NCBI GenBank assembly: GCA_016188005.1
Contig: JACPIQ010000008.1
Coordinates: 62,001-126,000, forward strand
Length of the DNA stretch: 64,000 nt
From: Candidatus Rokuibacteriota bacterium
GTDB taxonomy: Bacteria > Methylomirabilota > Methylomirabilia > Rokubacteriales > CSP1-6
Direction: 5' to 3'
The translations under genes were made by a program, and so were the position numbers. Below the pieces are notes generated by a model. That model saw only the letters and a program-made list of their open reading frames with translations, was not told the DNA's origin and ran no database searches. Positions 29,861-60,118 of the stretch are shown here, in pieces. How positions within the stretch are numbered: the first letter of the stretch is position 1; each line of letters begins with the position of its first letter.

Positions 29861-30139
29861 ATGACGCAGAGCCTGACCGACTGGCTTCAGCAGAGCCGCC
29901 TGATGGTCGTCGAGGTCGACACGCGCACGGGGCGCCTCCGGGTGAAGGGAGAGGCAGAGGCCTGCTCCGACATCGCATGCTCCGAGGCGACCGTCGTGGT
30001 GGCCGACGATGAGGCCGCCGCCACCCTCCACACCCTGAACCCGGGCGACATCGTCAGAGTCGAGTCGGCGCCCGGCCAGCCCCAGCGCGTCGTGGTCCTC
30101 CGTCGAGTCTGGGAAGAGCTGACGAGTCCGGAGCTCTAG
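29861..30139 (+). CDS. Small protein of unknown function ahead of formate dehydrogenase
   Basis: A 92-residue, acidic, soluble protein starting MTQSLTDWLQQSRLMVVEVD, with two cysteines spaced CSDIAC around residue 38 and a beta-rich second half (NPGDIVRVE, RVVVLRRVW). It has a perfect AGGAGG site. I do not recognise the family. It sits between the predicted promoter and the catalytic subunit and so is likely the first gene of the operon. Confidence 0.7.
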   Translation: MTQSLTDWLQQSRLMVVEVDTRTGRLRVKGEAEACSDIACSEATVVVADDEAAATLHTLNPGDIVRVESAPGQPQRVVVLRRVWEELTSPEL

Positions 30140-30214
30140 ACAGGCCGCGCGCGGGCCCCTGACCTTACCCGGCCGCGCGCTCCCACGCCGCCGTCGGCGG
30201 CAAGGAGGTTCCCG

Positions 30215-33200
30215 ATGAGTCTGTCGCGACGTGACTTCCTGAAGGTCGGGAGCGCCGCCACCGCCGGCGTCGTCGGCGGCGGCCGCGGGCTCGACCTGGC
30301 GCCGGTCGAGGCCGCGGCAACCACGCTGAAGATCACGGAGGCGAAGGCTGTCCACGGCGTCTGTCCGTACTGCGCCGTCGGCTGCGCCCAGCTGATCTAC
30401 ACGAAGGACAACCGGATCATCGACATCGAGGGCGACCCGGATACGCCCCACACGCTGGGGCGGCTTTGCCCGAAAGGTGCTGCGACCATCCAGCTGTCCA
30501 ACAACCCCCTCCGCCCGACGAAGGCGCTCTACCGCGCGCCGGGATCCGACCGGTGGGAGGAGAAGCCGCTCGAGTGGATGTGGGACGAGATCGCCAAGCG
30601 CGTCAAGGCCACGCGGGACGCGACGTTCGTCGAGGTCGAGAAGGGCAAGGACGGCAAGGACGTCGTCGTGAACCGGACCGAGGGCCTCGCGAACCTCGGC
30701 TCCGCGTGCATCGACAACGAGGAGTGCTACCTCGTCACCAAGCTCATGCGGACCCTGGGGGTGGTCTACCTCGAGCACCAGTCCCGCGTCTGACACTCCG
30801 CCACGGTCCCAGCTTTGGGGACCACGTTCGGCCGCGGGGCGATGACGACGAACCTCATCGACATCCAGAACGCGGATGTCATCATCGCGACGTCCAACAT
30901 GGCGGAGAACCACCCGGTCGGCTTCCAGTTCGTGATGAAGGCCAAGGAGCGCGGCGCCAAGCTCATCCACGTCGACCCGCGCTTCACCCGGACGAGCGCC
31001 GCCGCCGACATGCACCTGGCGATCCGCTCCGGCACGAACATCGCGTTCTTCGGGGGGCTGATCAAGTACGCGATCGACAACAACCTCTACTTCAAGGACT
31101 ACGTCGTCCACTACACGAACGCGTCGTTCCTGATCGACCCGGAGTTCAAGACGGCGACGGACCTCGCCGGGCTCTTCGCGGGCTTCGACGAGGCGAAGCG
31201 GGCCTACGACCAGAAGTCCTGGAAGTACCAGCTCGACGCCGAGGGCAACCCGAAGCGCGACCTGACGCTCCGGGACCCGCACAGCGTCTTCCAGCTCATG
31301 CGGCGCCAGTACGACCGCTACACCGTCGAGATGGTGGAGCGTGTGTGCGGCATCCCGAAGGAGAAGTTCATCGCGGCCGCCAAGCTCTTCTGCGAGGCGA
31401 GCGGCCCCGAGAAGACGGGGACCATCACCTACGCGCTCAACCTCACGCAGCACACGAACGGGGTCGAGAACATCCGTTCTCTCTGCATGCTCCAGCTCCT
31501 GCTCGGCAACGCCGGACGGCCCGGCGGCGGCGTCGTCGCCCTCCGCGGCCACGCGAACGTCCAGGGCGCCACCGACCTGGCGGTGCTCTACCAGGACTTG
31601 CCGGGCTACCACCCCACGCCGCTCCGCGACGCGCACCCCGACCTCAAGACCTACCTCGAGAAGACCACGCCGAAGTCCGGCTTCGTGGTCAACCGCCCGA
31701 AGTGGGTGGTCTCGTTGCTGAAGGCGTGGTACGGGGATAGGGCCACCAAGGAGAACGACTACGGCTTCGACTGGATCCCCAAGCGCGCGGCCGCGGACGC
31801 CTACAGCCAGCAGCACACCTTCGTGGACATGTACAACGGCAAGCTCAAGGGGTTCTTCGTGATCGGCCAGAATCCCGCGGTGGGCGGCTCGAACACCCGC
31901 GTGGTGCGTGAGGCGCTGCACAAGCTCGACTGGCTGGTCGTCCAGGACATCTTCCTGACCGAGACGGCCGAGGTCTGGAAGGCCCCGGCCTCGTCCTCGC
32001 GAGCGGCCGTGAGCCCGAAGGACGTGAAGACGGAGGTCTTCTTCCTGCCGGCGGCGCCAGCGGCGGAGAAGGACGGGACCCTCACCAACACGATGCGCCT
32101 CATCCAGTGGCATGACAAGGCCGTCGACCCGCCGGGGGACGTGCGCTCGGATGCCGAGCACATCTACCAGCTCGGGCGGCGGCTGAAGGCGCTCTATGCC
32201 GGCTCGAAGGCCAAGCGTGACCAGGGGATCCTCGCGCTGACCTGGGAGTACGGCGACACGCATCCCAGCATCCTCAAGGTGCTCGTCGAGATGAACGGCG
32301 TCGCGCTCGAGGAGCTGAAGGACAAGGACGGAAAGGTCCTCTACAAGAAGGGCGAACCGCTCAAGACCTTCGCCGACCTCCGGGACGACGGCACCACGGC
32401 GTCGGGGATCTGGATCTACACGGGCGTCACGGTCGCCGACGCGGAGGGCAAGATCGTCAACCGCGCCGCGAGCAGGAAGAAGGCCGACGAGAAGGACTAC
32501 CTCGCCCACGGCTGGGGCTGGGCGTGGCCGGCCAACCGGCGCATCCTCTACAACCGCGCCGCGGCGGCACCCGACGGCCGGCCGTGGAGCGAGAAGAAGA
32601 AGTTCCTCTGGTGGGACCCGGAGGCGCCGTCCAACGTGCCCGACAAGAAGGGCCGATGGGTCGGCTTCGACGTGCCCGACTTCAACGCCTTCCTGGCGCC
32701 CGACGCCAAGGGGGGCGACAACCCGTACATCATGCGGGCGGACGGCAAGGGGGCGTTCTTCGGCCCGCTGGTCGACGGGCCGTTCCCCGAGCACTACGAG
32801 CCGATGGAGTCGCCGGTCAAGAACCTCCTCTCCAAGACGCAGAACAACCCGACGGCCAAGCGCTGGACGGTGGGCGAGAAGCGGAACGAGCTGGCGGGGG
32901 TCGGGTCGACCGAGTACCCGTACGTGATCACGACGTACCGGCTGACCGAGCATCACCTCTCGGGCGTCATGTCGCGCAACCTGCCCTTGCTCGCGGAGCT
33001 GTACGAGTCGCACTTCGTCGAGATGAGCCAGGAGCTCGCGAAGGAGCTCGGCATCCAGAACGGCGAGAAGGTGACCGTCATGACGCCGCGGGGCAAGATC
33101 CACGTGAAGGCGATGGTGACCCAGCGGCTCAAGCCCTTCACGATCGACGGCAGGACCGTCCACCAGATCGGCATCCCGTGGCACTGGGGCTACAATGGCG

Positions 33201-33325
33201 TCCCGGCACTCCCCGGGAGCAAGGGAGACATCACCAACGACCTGTCGGCCAACGTGGGAGACCCCAACGTCTTCATCCAGGAGTCCAAGGCCTTCCTCTG
33301 CAACGTGAAGAAGGGGGTGGTCTAG
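30215..33325 (+). CDS. fdnG: Formate dehydrogenase catalytic subunit, selenocysteine-containing (in-frame UGA read as Sec193)
   Basis: The gene is 1037 codons and is interrupted by TGA at 30791-30793. Read as selenocysteine, it gives a 1036-residue molybdopterin enzyme of the FdnG/FdoG class. The signal SRRDFLK at residues 4-10 is a twin-arginine leader. The 4Fe-4S cluster uses C50, C53, C57 and C85. The active site reads HQSRV-U-HSATVPALGTTFGRGAMT, identical in layout to known Sec-containing enzymes, where Sec binds Mo or W and takes the formate hydride. The two halves are in the same frame and share the family without a gap. A 6-bp perfect stem-loop lies 11 bases after the UGA. AAGGAGG precedes the ATG. 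The enzyme faces the periplasm by analogy. Confidence 0.95.
30805..30823 (+). promoter_or_regulatory. Candidate bacterial SECIS hairpin of fdnG
   Basis: GGTCCC at 30805-30810 pairs perfectly with GGGACC at 30818-30823, with a seven-base loop AGCTTTG. The apical loop begins 17 bases after the UGA, within the normal range for bacterial SECIS elements bound by SelB. Confidence 0.65.
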
Positions 33326-33327
33326 CC

Positions 33328-34104
33328 ATGGCCCGCACGCTGGCGATGTTCACGGACACCTCCCTGTGCATCGGCTGTCGCGCCTGCCAGGTCGCGTGCA
33401 AGCAGTGGAACGAGCTCGGCATGGAGACGCCGCAGTGGACCGGCACCTATCAGAACCAGCCGCACTTCACCGACCAGACCTACCGCCTCGTGCGCTTCGT
33501 CGAGGAGGCGCGGCCGACGGGCGAGCTGGCCTGGCTGCTCATGTCGGACGTCTGCAAGCACTGCGCCCAGGCCGGCTGTCTCGAGGCCTGTCCGACCGGC
33601 GCGATCTACCGGACGCAGTACGGAACGGTGGACATCAAGCAGGACGTCTGCAACGGCTGCCGCTACTGCGTCTCCTCGTGCCCGTTCGGCGTGGTGGCGT
33701 TCGACAAGACCGCGGGCACGGCGAAGAAGTGTACGTTCTGCAACGACCGGATCCAGAACGGGCTTGGCCCGGCGTGCGCGAAGGCGTGCCCCACCGAGTC
33801 GATCCAGTTCGGCTTCCGGGACGACCTCGTCGCGAAGGCGCAGAAGCGTGTCGAGGCGCTCAAGGGCATGGGCTTCAGGGACGCCCAGCTCTACGGCGCC
33901 GACTCGAAGGGCTTCCTCGGCGGCCTGAACGCGTTCTTCTTGCTCCTGTCGAAGCCCTCTACCTACAACCTGCCCGACAGCCCGAAGGTGCCGCAGCGGA
34001 ATGTCGTCGCGGACTCCCTCCTGTCCATCGCCTCGGGGGTCCTGGTCGGGCTCGGTGCGTTGCTCGCGTTCCGCGGCCGCGGGCAGGGAGGCGGCGATGC
34101 TTAA
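33328..34104 (+). CDS. fdnH: Formate dehydrogenase iron-sulfur subunit
   Basis: A 258-residue protein with four cysteine clusters: CIGCRACQVACKQW (near residue 14), CKHCAQAGCLEACP (near 76), CNGCRYCVSSCP (near 108) and CTFCNDRIQNGLGPACAKACP (near 135). These would carry four 4Fe-4S clusters and wire the catalytic subunit to the membrane. A hydrophobic helix (LLSIASGVLVGLGALLAF) near the C-terminus anchors it. It starts three bases after fdnG and overlaps the next gene by eight bases. Confidence 0.93.
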   Translation: MARTLAMFTDTSLCIGCRACQVACKQWNELGMETPQWTGTYQNQPHFTDQTYRLVRFVEEARPTGELAWLLMSDVCKHCAQAGCLEACPTGAIYRTQYGTVDIKQDVCNGCRYCVSSCPFGVVAFDKTAGTAKKCTFCNDRIQNGLGPACAKACPTESIQFGFRDDLVAKAQKRVEALKGMGFRDAQLYGADSKGFLGGLNAFFLLLSKPSTYNLPDSPKVPQRNVVADSLLSIASGVLVGLGALLAFRGRGQGGGDA

Positions 34105-34921
34105 GGCCCCGCACTGGGAGATGCTGATCGTCTGGTACTTCTTCCTCGGCGGGATCGCCGGCGGGGCGTACTTCACGGCGGCGATCGCCGACAACTTCGG
34201 GAGCGCCCGTGACCGGGCGGTGGCCAAGGTGGGCTACCTCCTGTCGCTCCCGCTGGCCGCCGCCTGCGGCATCCTGCTCATCGTGGACCTCGGGGTGCCG
34301 ACGCGGTTCCTCAACATGCTGGGCACGTTCAAGTTCTGGGACCCGATGTCCATCGGGGCGTGGGGCATCGGCATCTTCGGGCTCTTCTCGCTCGGGTCGT
34401 CCGTTCTGAGCTTCTCGAGCTCGGCGCGGGCGCTGGCGCTCCGCCGGAAGGGCAGCCTCGTCGGCAGCATCTTCGGGTTCTTCCTGGCCGCCTACACGGG
34501 CGTGCTCCTCAGCAACACCGCGCTGCCGTTCTGGAGTGACGCGCGGCTGATGGGCGCGCTCTTCCTGGCCTCCGGCGCGTCGACCGGCCTGGCGGCCATC
34601 TCGCTCCTGATGTGGCTCGGCAGCGGCTCCGGCGGCGAGGGCTTGGCCAAGGTGAAGCGGGCCGATCGGTACTCGATGATCATCGAGCTCGTCCTGCTGG
34701 CGGTCTTCCTGGGCCTGCTCGGGTCCGCCGCCCAGCCGATCACGACGGGCCGCCTTGCGCCGCTCTTCTGGGGGGGGCTCGTGGGGGTGGGACTCGTCAT
34801 CCCGCTCCTGCTCGAGCTGGTCGGCCGGCGCGTGAAGGCCGTGGCGGCGATCGCGGCTGTCCTGGTGCTCGTCGGTGGCTTCGTGCTGCGTTACGTCGTG
34901 GTGATGTCCGTCCAGACCTGA
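34097..34921 (+). CDS. NrfD/PsrC-family membrane subunit of formate dehydrogenase
   Basis: A 274-residue polytopic protein, about eight hydrophobic helices, starting HWEMLIVWYFFLGGIAGGAYFTA, which is typical of NrfD/PsrC quinone-reactive subunits. No haem-binding pattern of the FdnI cytochrome b type is evident, so electrons probably pass directly from iron-sulfur clusters to quinone. It overlaps the iron-sulfur subunit gene. Confidence 0.88.
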   Translation: MLKAPHWEMLIVWYFFLGGIAGGAYFTAAIADNFGSARDRAVAKVGYLLSLPLAAACGILLIVDLGVPTRFLNMLGTFKFWDPMSIGAWGIGIFGLFSLGSSVLSFSSSARALALRRKGSLVGSIFGFFLAAYTGVLLSNTALPFWSDARLMGALFLASGASTGLAAISLLMWLGSGSGGEGLAKVKRADRYSMIIELVLLAVFLGLLGSAAQPITTGRLAPLFWGGLVGVGLVIPLLLELVGRRVKAVAAIAAVLVLVGGFVLRYVVVMSVQT

Positions 34922-34933
34922 CCGGGTCGCCCG

Positions 34934-35857
34934 GTGCCGACCGGCGAGGGGCCCGGCGTCGGGCCCCTCGCGTCGCGTCCCGAGGCCGGGGAGCCTGCGC
35001 GCGTGGCCATCGATCTCCGGGAAGAGTGGGCGGACCTGCTCGCGCGCCGCACCGAGCTCGGCGCGGCGCTCACAGCGTACGGGGAGATCGTCGACCAGTG
35101 GGCACAGTGGTCGGCGGAGCGCCCGGCGCGGCTCGGCTGGGGATCAGCGGAGTGCCGCGCCCGGTGGGAGCGTGGTGTCCCCCTGCTCGCCGAGGCCCCC
35201 CCGACGATCCGCGCCGACGACCTCGAGGAGCTTCTCGGCGGCGTGATGGAGCGGCTCGCGGCGGCCAGGGAGGATGCGACCCCGGGCTTGCGGCGGGTGG
35301 CGGCGGCGTGGGACCGGGGGGAGATCGGCCCGGCCGCCCTGTTCCCGGGACCCGGGAGGGTGGGGGCGCCCGCGCTCGAGGAAGTGTCGGGGCTGCCCGC
35401 TGACCTGCTGTCGTTCCTCGCCTACGGGAGCCTGCGGCCGGCGCTCGAGCCCTACTTCGCGGGGTGCCGGCCGCACCTGGACGAGCACATCTGGGCTCTC
35501 GGCATCTGCCCGTTCTGCGGAGGCCCTCCGGGCTTCTCCGACGTGCTCGAGGACGGCAAGCGACGGCTCGCATGCCACCTGTGCGGGGGTGGCTGGACGT
35601 TCGGGAGGCTGCGCTGCCCGCACTGCGGGACCGAGGAGAGCGCGGACTTGGTCCGTCTCGGGCTGGAGGAGCGCGACCAGGGCTACGCGATCGTCGCCTG
35701 CCGGCGCTGCAAGGCCTACCTCAAGGAACTGGACCGCAGAGTCCGCTGGAACGCTCGATCCGCGCTGGTCGAGGACTGGGGCTCTCCCCACTTCGACGTG
35801 GCCGCCAAGCGGGCCGGATACTGGAGGGCGTGCCCGACGCTGCTCCTGCTCGTGTGA
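34934..35857 (+). CDS. fdhE: Formate dehydrogenase accessory protein FdhE
   Basis: A 307-residue FdhE-like protein. Four CxxC pairs are seen in the C-terminal half: CPFCGGPP, CHLCGGGW, CPHCGTEE and CRRCKAYL, forming a rubredoxin-like iron or zinc site. FdhE is needed for maturation of respiratory formate dehydrogenases. The GTG at 34934 lacks a ribosome binding site; a GTG at 35002 with GGGGAG upstream gives VAIDLREEW and may be the true start. Confidence 0.88.
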   Translation: MPTGEGPGVGPLASRPEAGEPARVAIDLREEWADLLARRTELGAALTAYGEIVDQWAQWSAERPARLGWGSAECRARWERGVPLLAEAPPTIRADDLEELLGGVMERLAAAREDATPGLRRVAAAWDRGEIGPAALFPGPGRVGAPALEEVSGLPADLLSFLAYGSLRPALEPYFAGCRPHLDEHIWALGICPFCGGPPGFSDVLEDGKRRLACHLCGGGWTFGRLRCPHCGTEESADLVRLGLEERDQGYAIVACRRCKAYLKELDRRVRWNARSALVEDWGSPHFDVAAKRAGYWRACPTLLLLV

Positions 35858-58707: not shown

Positions 58708-59654
58708 TGAAGATCGTCCCGCTGGCAGGCGAGTCGCTGGGCGTGCGCTCGGTGGCGACGTACGTGGAGTGCGGGGCCACGCGGCTCATCATCGACCCGG
58801 GCGCCTCGCTGGCGCCGAGCCGGTTCAACCTCCCCCCCGCCGACGCGGAGTGGGAGGCGCTCAAGCGGGCGAACGACCGCATCTCCGGCTACGCGGCCCG
58901 CGCCGGGTGGGTGTTCGTCAGCCACTACCACGAGGACCACTTCCGCTACGACCCGGCGCTCTACCGGGACCGCGGCGTGTGGGCGAAGGATCCCGCGCGG
59001 ATGATCAACCCGAGCCAGAAGGGGCGCGCGCGGGAGCTGTGGAAGGCGCTGGAGGGGCAGTGCCGGCTGGACACGGCCGAGGGCCGGCGGTACGAGACGG
59101 CGGAGTGCGTGCTTCACGCCTCGCCGCCGCTGGCTCACGGGGTCGAGGGCAGCGGCTTCGGCTACGTGGTGGCGTTGACCGTGACGGACCGCCGCGAGGG
59201 CTTCCGGTTCGTTCACGGCTCCGACGTGCAGGGGCCGCTCTCCGCCGTGGCGGCGGCCTACCTGGCGCGCGAGCGGCCGAACCTGCTGTACCTCTCGGGT
59301 CCGCCGGCCTACCTGGAGGCCCGGATCGGGCGCGCCCTCATCGAGCAGGGGGTGGAACATCTGCTGCGGGTGATGGATCGCACGGGGTGCCGCGTGATCA
59401 TGGACCATCACGCTCTGCGGGACGACGGCTACCCCGAGCGGTTCCGGAGGCTCTGGGAGACGGGCCGGGTCCAGACGGCGGCGGGCTTTCTCGGGCTCGC
59501 GGACCAGCCGCTGGAGGCCCGGCGGCGGCGGCTCTGGGAGATCACGCGGAAGCCCGCCGGGCGCATGCAGCCTCGATTGAAGAGCGACAGAGCGTCGGGT
59601 AAGATGACGACGCCTCACCCAGTCCGTCGCACAAGGGGGGGACGATCCGGATGA
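58707..59654 (+). CDS. UPF0282-type metallo-beta-lactamase-fold protein
   Basis: A 315-residue protein that starts LAGESLGVRSVATYVECG and LIIDPGASLAPSRFNLPP, the UPF0282 opening. SHYHEDHFRYDP near 71 is the metal motif; VHGSDVQGP (near 172) and MDHHALRDDGYPERF near 232 supply other ligands. UPF0282 is best known from archaea and some deep-branching bacteria. Function unknown. It overlaps the peroxiredoxin gene by ATGA, hinting at a joint role. Confidence 0.85.
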   Translation: MKIVPLAGESLGVRSVATYVECGATRLIIDPGASLAPSRFNLPPADAEWEALKRANDRISGYAARAGWVFVSHYHEDHFRYDPALYRDRGVWAKDPARMINPSQKGRARELWKALEGQCRLDTAEGRRYETAECVLHASPPLAHGVEGSGFGYVVALTVTDRREGFRFVHGSDVQGPLSAVAAAYLARERPNLLYLSGPPAYLEARIGRALIEQGVEHLLRVMDRTGCRVIMDHHALRDDGYPERFRRLWETGRVQTAAGFLGLADQPLEARRRRLWEITRKPAGRMQPRLKSDRASGKMTTPHPVRRTRGGRSG

Positions 59655-60118
59655 GCGAGACGAGGACGCTGACCATCGGAGATGCGGCTCCCGATTTCAC
59701 GCTGAAGGGCATCGGCCTCAAGGAGGTGAGCCTGCGGGACTTCCGCGGCAAGACCGTCGTCGTGCTCTTCTATCCGCTGGACTGGACGCCCGGCTGATCC
59801 ACCTGCATGCCCGCCTTCGACAAGCGTGTGAAGGACTTCGAGGCGGCCAATACCCAGGTGCTGGGTATCAGCACGGACAGCCCGTTCAGCCATGAGAACT
59901 GGGCGAAGGCGGTCGGGATCTCGAACTACCCGCTGCTCGCAGACGTGCACCGGAGCGCGGCGAAGGACTGGGGCGTGTACTGGCCCGACTGGAACGCCAA
60001 CGTGCGCGCGACCTTCGTCGTGGACCGCGGCGGGACCGTCCGCTTCATCGAGCGTTACGCCAAGGGGCAACTCCCCGACCCGGAGAAGATCCTGGCCGAG
60101 GTCAAGAAGCTCGGCTAG
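59651..60118 (+). CDS. Selenocysteine-containing peroxiredoxin (in-frame UGA read as Sec49, U-x-x-C)
   Basis: A gene of 156 codons interrupted by TGA at 59795-59797. Upstream the protein is typical AhpC/TSA: IGDAAPDFTLKGI, VSLRDFRGKTVVVLFYPLDWTPG. Downstream, in the same frame, STCMPAFDKRVKDFEAANTQVLGISTDSPFSHENWAKAVG and FVVDRGGTVRFIERYAKGQLPDP complete the family. The UGA falls precisely on the peroxidatic residue (TPGC in Bcp/PrxQ becomes TPG-U) and is followed by C52, giving a UxxC pair. With Sec the product is 155 residues. A hairpin with a four-base loop lies 16 bases after the UGA. The alternatives, nonsense mutation or split gene, are less likely because the rest is intact. ATG overlaps the upstream stop. 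Confidence 0.88.
59814..59834 (+). promoter_or_regulatory. Candidate bacterial SECIS hairpin of the peroxiredoxin gene
   Basis: CCTTC (59814-59818) pairs with GAAGG (59830-59834); a bulged G (59819) is followed by ACA/TGT pairing and an AGCG loop (59823-59826). The loop starts 25 bases after the UGA, within the usual range. The bulge and a G in the loop resemble SelB-binding elements. Confidence 0.6.

Follow-up and report, generated by a model that had tools for sequence, protein, structure and literature searches.

An FdnG-Type Formate Dehydrogenase Gene with an In-Frame TGA, Almost Certainly Read as Selenocysteine, in a Candidatus Rokuibacteriota Genome

Genes and Features of the Locus

We analyzed a stretch of DNA of 64,000 nucleotides (hereafter, the window) from a Candidatus Rokuibacteriota bacterium, which corresponds to positions 62001-126000 of contig 8 in a draft genome of 5.37 Mb (140 contigs; estimated 98.1% complete and 4.7% contaminated). 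A formate dehydrogenase operon is located near the middle of the window, in the order 92-aa gene, fdhA, fdhB, NrfD-type gene and FdhE-like gene, and its features are listed in Table 1. The closest named relatives are Candidatus Rokubacteria metagenome genomes, in which four loci have best segments 88-95% identical.

Table 1. Positions in the window of the formate dehydrogenase genes and of the signals found in and before fdhA.
Feature	Position	Strand	Evidence
92-aa conserved protein, no known family	29861..30139	+	NCBIfam, Pfam, profile search
fdhA ribosome binding site AAGGAGG	30202..30208	+	read off sequence
fdhA, alpha subunit of a selenocysteine formate dehydrogenase (1036 aa)	30215..33325	+	TIGR01553, Pfam, translation
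In-frame TGA, codon 193, almost certainly read as selenocysteine	30791..30793	+	translation; relatives; aligned with E. coli fdnG TGA codon 196
Candidate SECIS hairpin GGUCCC, loop AGCUUUG, GGGACC	30805..30823	+	near-frozen synonymous sites, rare codons, covariation
fdhB, ferredoxin-type beta subunit, one C-terminal hydrophobic helix	33322..34104	+	FDH-beta 217 bits, below cut-off 335
NrfD-type membrane subunit	34088..34921	+	PF03916 97.8 bits, cut-off 25.8; hydropathy
FdhE-like maturation protein	34934..35857	+	PF24859 central domain 31.2 bits, cut-off 27

The fdhA frame contains a single internal stop, and its translation gives 192 residues, the TGA and then 843 residues up to the terminal stop. 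An earlier note on this DNA had placed the TGA at codon 193 within HQSRV-U-HSATV, and the translation confirms this position. The ribosome binding site ends 6 nt 5' of the fdhA ATG. After the TGA, no sequence resembling a ribosome binding site was read upstream of the first TTG (30815), and the first ATG (30842) is preceded by a GGGG run 2 nt upstream, which is too close to serve as one; the statement of the same note that the downstream half has no ribosome binding site of its own therefore stands, as none lies at a usable distance before either start.

The protein has a twin-arginine start, SRRDFLK, for which the Pfam TAT model gives 21.2 bits, slightly below its cut-off of 22.7, and it carries the Fe-S motif CPYCAVGC...RLCPKG. 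FdhB has a C-terminal hydrophobic helix and the NrfD-type protein has several hydrophobic helices, which suggests that the operon encodes a membrane-anchored complex passing electrons to quinone. The membrane side on which the enzyme would act rests on the twin-arginine start, with its Pfam score slightly under the cut-off. In the FdhE-like protein, the C-terminal domain PF24860 scores 24.1 bits (under the cut-off of 27), and the cut-offs of the NCBIfam FdhE models were not reached.

The 92-aa protein showed no family in these searches: among 19 members the best Pfam E-value was 0.0095, and one PDB match had an E-value of 0.89. Its AlphaFold model is of low confidence (pLDDT 67.7, pTM 0.56). 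Two cysteines, C35 and C40, are invariant among the 19 aligned members, and the conserved tail is approximately RRxWxExxSPE. When 95 genomes of the phylum were searched with a profile, 48 matches reached E 1e-29 or better. Of these, 37 sit immediately before an fdhA match in the same orientation, 3 adjoin one divergently and 8 are beside none, where the fdhA matches considered are those at E 1e-100. The matches of fdhA, of the 92-aa protein and of the peroxiredoxin described below were tallied by hand from tables.

Family Assignment and Known Relatives

When the TGA is read through, FdhA matches TIGR01553 with 1149 bits (cut-off 814.2) over residues 3-1033, in agreement with the earlier assignment of this frame to a formate dehydrogenase catalytic subunit. 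The score against NF041513 (1210.9 bits) is higher than that against TIGR01553 but is under the NF041513 cut-off of 1400. Molybdopterin, dinucleotide-binding and Fe4S4 domains were found by Pfam (Fe4S4, 54.5 bits with a cut-off of 22.7). The active site has selenocysteine (Sec) followed by His, and the Fe-S cysteines are present.

Compared with E. coli K-12 FdnG (PDB 1kqf), 445 of 990 aligned positions (45%) are identical and the TGA codons coincide; the earlier note had described Sec at this position as standard for FdnG/FdoG enzymes. The twin-arginine start and the Fe-S motif are common to both proteins, whereas the active site reads UHGP in E. coli and UHSA in the window; at the DNA level, no match was found in E. 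coli genomes. The best-scoring solved relatives are PDB 1h0h, 9qm0 and 6sdr (897 and approximately 840 bits), which are FdhA proteins of the Desulfovibrio type. At the site aligned with the window TGA, 1h0h has X and then HSAT, and the other entries are titled selenocysteine-containing. The Desulfovibrio-type enzymes are soluble and consist of two subunits, unlike the window operon, which encodes a membrane subunit after fdhB. This membrane subunit is of the NrfD type instead of the FdnI of the E. coli complex, and we have therefore filed the catalytic subunit under FdnG, while the complex is not filed under FdnGHI. An excerpt of PMC13188914 lists the Sec-site motif UHxP for formate dehydrogenase, which the UHSA of the window does not match; because 1h0h also has HSAT after its X, we take this motif as typical and not as defining.

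Selenocysteine Decoding Genes and Other TGA Genes

The source genome carries the genes needed for Sec decoding: selC (69.3 bits, cut-off 47; called by ARAGORN as tRNA-SeC with anticodon tca), selA (577 bits, cut-off 268), selB (364 bits, cut-off 242, the match running from position 1 to 580 of 581) and selD, for which the score is 348 bits with a cut-off of 125. The first three are within 5 kb on contig 4, selD is on contig 86, and none is inside the window. The earlier note had expected Sec decoding in this genome with sel genes outside the window, and had named absence of selB or selC as evidence against it; since selC, selA, selB and selD are present, the expectation is supported and this objection fails.

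Among the 60 genomes of the order, selB was found over the cut-off in 54 and selC in 49. Against the Sec reading, five genomes with a TGA-containing fdhA gave neither (G023, G026, G042, G043 and G053). Three of these are estimated to be 77-81% complete, and G026 and G053, which carry both the TGA-type formate dehydrogenase and the TGA peroxiredoxin, to be 95% and 100% complete; we can only suggest that the missing genes are assembly gaps. Two other genomes have more than one tRNA-Sec match above the cut-off, with three in G057 and two in G059, on different contigs.

The peroxiredoxin gene of the window (59651-60118; AhpC/TSA match) has a TGA at 59795. One TGA was found in 52 of its 57 matches, which come from 52 of the 60 genomes of the order, and TGC takes the TGA position in G045; the other matches are three fragments short of the site and one paralogue at 40% identity. 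This TGA gene is also real, in line with the earlier description of fdhA as a second selenoprotein in the window. In the peroxiredoxin region the predicted folds are weak and vary from relative to relative, so that no hairpin is proposed for this gene. Two further TGA genes were observed elsewhere in the genome. The selD gene has one in-frame TGA near its start, read as ACAG-U-ASK, which is presumably the usual active-site place. A second, more distant formate dehydrogenase on contig 49 has a TGA at the same site as fdhA, with fdhB-, nrfD- and fdhE-like genes downstream.

Conservation of the TGA and Cys-Type Paralogues

In the same order, 60 genomes yielded 90 listed fdhA matches; 41 of these, from 38 genomes, have exactly one TGA, and no stop other than TGA was found in the 90. 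Many of the remaining matches are Cys types or fragments short of the site. A search for the active-site motif, in which any residue was allowed at the Sec position, gave 51 matches (the window being counted twice and three genomes twice), comprising 43 with TGA, 8 with Cys and nothing else. Seventeen full-length relatives with the TGA are 73-95% identical to the window protein right to the end.

The Cys-type paralogues (L043-L045, L047 and L049-L052) are approximately 65% identical to the window protein, having Cys instead of Sec, and this residue is encoded by TGC or TGT. Their surroundings are similar to those of fdhA: fdhB and an NrfD-type gene come next in 7 of the 7 loci that reach that far, and the 92-aa gene precedes in 6 of 8. 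A tree of 42 proteins groups 7 Cys proteins in a single clade with support of 100/100, which adjoins the Sec type of the window; the remaining Sec types fall outside. The tree is rooted at its midpoint and has some open branches elsewhere. The position of one locus (L068), which has a very long branch, is unsure because its gene matched in two pieces in different frames. The simplest reading of this topology would be one change from Sec to Cys.

Sec and Cys types are located a few kb apart on one contig in at least two of the 60 genomes (G043 and G030). In G043 both operons are complete, and the TGA and the Cys are read directly in L052, a locus that represents this genome. The second operon of G030 is stop-free and 64% identical to the window, and it is ended by the contig end short of the residue at the site. 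The stretches L097 and L098, from two genomes, each show a TGA-type operon beside a stop-free (Cys-type) one; together they contain three 92-aa genes, and a fourth 92-aa gene is on a contig that seems to continue L098. The genome of the window itself gave no Cys-type formate dehydrogenase at E 1e-100.

A Candidate SECIS Hairpin After the TGA

The perfect 6-bp hairpin that had been noticed 11 bases past the TGA is indeed present, GGTCCC (30805-30810) pairing with GGGACC (30818-30823). According to an excerpt of PMC13188914, a bacterial SECIS has a stem of 4-16 bp, a loop of 3-9 nt and a G in the first two loop positions, the loop being 16-37 nt from the UGA, and the fdhA hairpin, with its 7-nt loop and 17 nt between loop and UGA, fits this rule. 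No Rfam family reached its gathering score anywhere in the window. The hairpin alone is not beyond chance, because 88 of 1016 fdhA codon positions are followed, at an appropriate spacing, by a perfect stem of 6 bp with a loop of 3-9 nt. When the peptide was shuffled synonymously 5000 times, such a hairpin arose in 28.5% of cases, and the folding energy is not better than that of the shuffles (P 0.57). The presence of a hairpin was dropped as proof of Sec, since coding DNA this rich in GC is expected to yield one by chance.

The weight rests instead on conservation, since the codons of the hairpin are nearly frozen in Sec genes and not in Cys genes, and its pairs covary. The hairpin is spelled with CCA, GCT and TTG, which account for 3.5, 2.9 and 4.5% of the use for their amino acids in fdhA, and the joint usage product of its six codons is 3.7e-6. 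In 18 complete Sec genes (the window and 17 relatives, L022-L039; mean pairwise protein identity 81%), synonymous variation in these six codons is 0.068 vs 0.281 gene-wide; values this low or lower occur in 23 of 674 six-codon segments of the Sec genes, so that other segments are equally frozen. For the same codons of eight Cys paralogues with loci, one of them partial, the variation is 0.393 vs 0.307 gene-wide, and 587 of 748 segments are as low. Partial Sec genes, more distant Sec types and Cys matches without a locus stood outside this test, as did five loci without a site in the motif search (L040, L054, L069, L070 and L072); L052, L053 and L055, which come from the same genomes as L024, L025 and L023 and have rows identical to theirs in the tree, were not included in the Sec set.

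Covariation was examined in 14 distinct Sec sequences, including the type of the window and more distant types, in which 90% of cells pair. Two-sided changes occur in 7 cells and at 3 of the 7 pairs. None of 500 shuffles, which ignore relatedness among the sequences, reached the cell counts or the covariation score, and 20 of 500 reached the number of pairs. When the partner strand was slid by 1-3 nt, pairing fell to 62% or less. The outermost pair, which is one of the three covarying pairs, and the innermost pair are each unpaired in 5 of the 14 sequences, and the safe core of the hairpin is therefore five pairs. As judged from these patterns, the fdhA hairpin is under selection.

In the same register of the Cys paralogues, 77% of cells pair with no excess covariation, and this pairing is left over either from Sec ancestry or from the coding sequence itself. 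A covariance model built from the formate dehydrogenase hairpins also scores 7 of the 7 Cys paralogues searched (12.8-39.5 bits); with both results, the presence of the hairpin does not separate Sec genes from Cys genes. The model finds the window fdhA and the second formate dehydrogenase of the genome, both of which are in its building set, and gave no match at the peroxiredoxin or selD site. We rejected it as a selenoprotein detector, since it misses these two sites and reaches the Cys paralogues. On E. coli fdnG, its second-best match is at the right site with 8.6 bits only. The fdnG hairpin shares the register and the loop distance of the window hairpin and keeps 5 of the 7 pairs; the loop reads GCUUU in the window vs AGUCU in E. 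coli. The comparison proposed in the earlier note, which looked for a common shape of the formate dehydrogenase and peroxiredoxin hairpins, did not give a common sequence, the peroxiredoxin being missed by the covariance model; the two sites share at most the loose general rules in the excerpt of PMC13188914.

Alternative Explanations

An in-frame TGA in a Cys-type gene would also result from an error in sequencing or assembly or from a genuine nonsense mutation, and a Cys paralogue whose codon here is TGC or TGT does occur in the order. It is, however, hardly conceivable that such an event explains fdhA, as the same TGA recurs in independent genomes (the 41 matches in 38 genomes mentioned above) with no other stop, and the 17 full-length relatives remain similar to the end of the protein. 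An equally slight chance is given to a split gene, in which one protein stops at the TGA and a second begins after it. Such a second protein could be provided by an 836-aa open frame from TTG 30815, but no suitably spaced ribosome binding site precedes this start, the active-site motif would be cut, and the eight Cys paralogues read are unsplit at the site.

In a third alternative, the UGA would be decoded not as Sec but as some other amino acid, or simply read through. Nothing was found in favor of this, and we regard it as very improbable: the genome has a complete sel gene set, the alternative residue is Cys in 8 of the 8 non-TGA genes read, the hairpin is under selection, and the NrfD-type gene of the same operon ends normally at a TGA (34919). 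Because the decoding genes are all present in the genome and the signal is conserved in relatives, the TGA of fdhA is almost certainly read as selenocysteine, and we have very high confidence that fdhA encodes an FdnG-type formate dehydrogenase catalytic subunit whose UGA is decoded through SelB and the hairpin.

Discussion

The gene, its TGA, the selected hairpin, the complete Sec genes and the operon are read directly from the DNA. From knowledge of the family, SelB with the Sec-tRNA encoded by selC would bind the hairpin just past the UGA and insert selenocysteine, which would coordinate the cofactor metal, molybdenum or tungsten. Once folded, FdhA would be exported by the TAT route, and FdhA, FdhB and the NrfD-type membrane protein would together oxidize formate, with the electrons passing to quinone. 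It is conceivable, though rather doubtful, that the 92-aa protein is a lineage-specific maturation or regulatory factor for Rokubacterial formate dehydrogenases and, at the same time, that the neighboring Sec and Cys operons in some lineages act as a selenium-dependent switch.

Formate dehydrogenase as a selenoprotein is textbook knowledge. Among the papers listed on Rokubacteria or Methylomirabilota with Sec or formate dehydrogenase, on NrfD with selenocysteine formate dehydrogenase and on Cys variants of formate dehydrogenase, no title or abstract opening is devoted to this enzyme. Excerpts of a 2026 review (PMC13188914) describe FdhA as the most widely distributed bacterial selenoprotein family and, citing Deng et al. 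2026, note that 63 selenoproteins are predicted in one Methylomirabilota genome. Our finding is therefore not surprising: it is real, correctly read and ordinary, being another example of a well-known kind of enzyme. Concerning its metabolic role, an excerpt of PMC5103831 suggests that methanol oxidation in Rokubacteria may be followed by the use of formate dehydrogenase, and according to an excerpt of PMC8780371 one Rokubacterial genome of two carries formate dehydrogenase genes. Methanol oxidation as the source of formate was considered and set aside, since TIGR03075 finds no PQQ alcohol dehydrogenase in the genome of the window; this negative result is weak, because the model was over its cut-off in 0 of 14 control genomes.

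Four genes of this genome (the two fdhA genes, selD and the peroxiredoxin gene) carry an in-frame TGA that a standard gene caller would read as a stop. The comparison of a well-sampled Sec gene with its Cys sister shows post-codon synonymous sites that are frozen only where Sec is decoded, and in GC-rich genomes such frozen sites are a cleaner test of a SECIS than a hairpin search.
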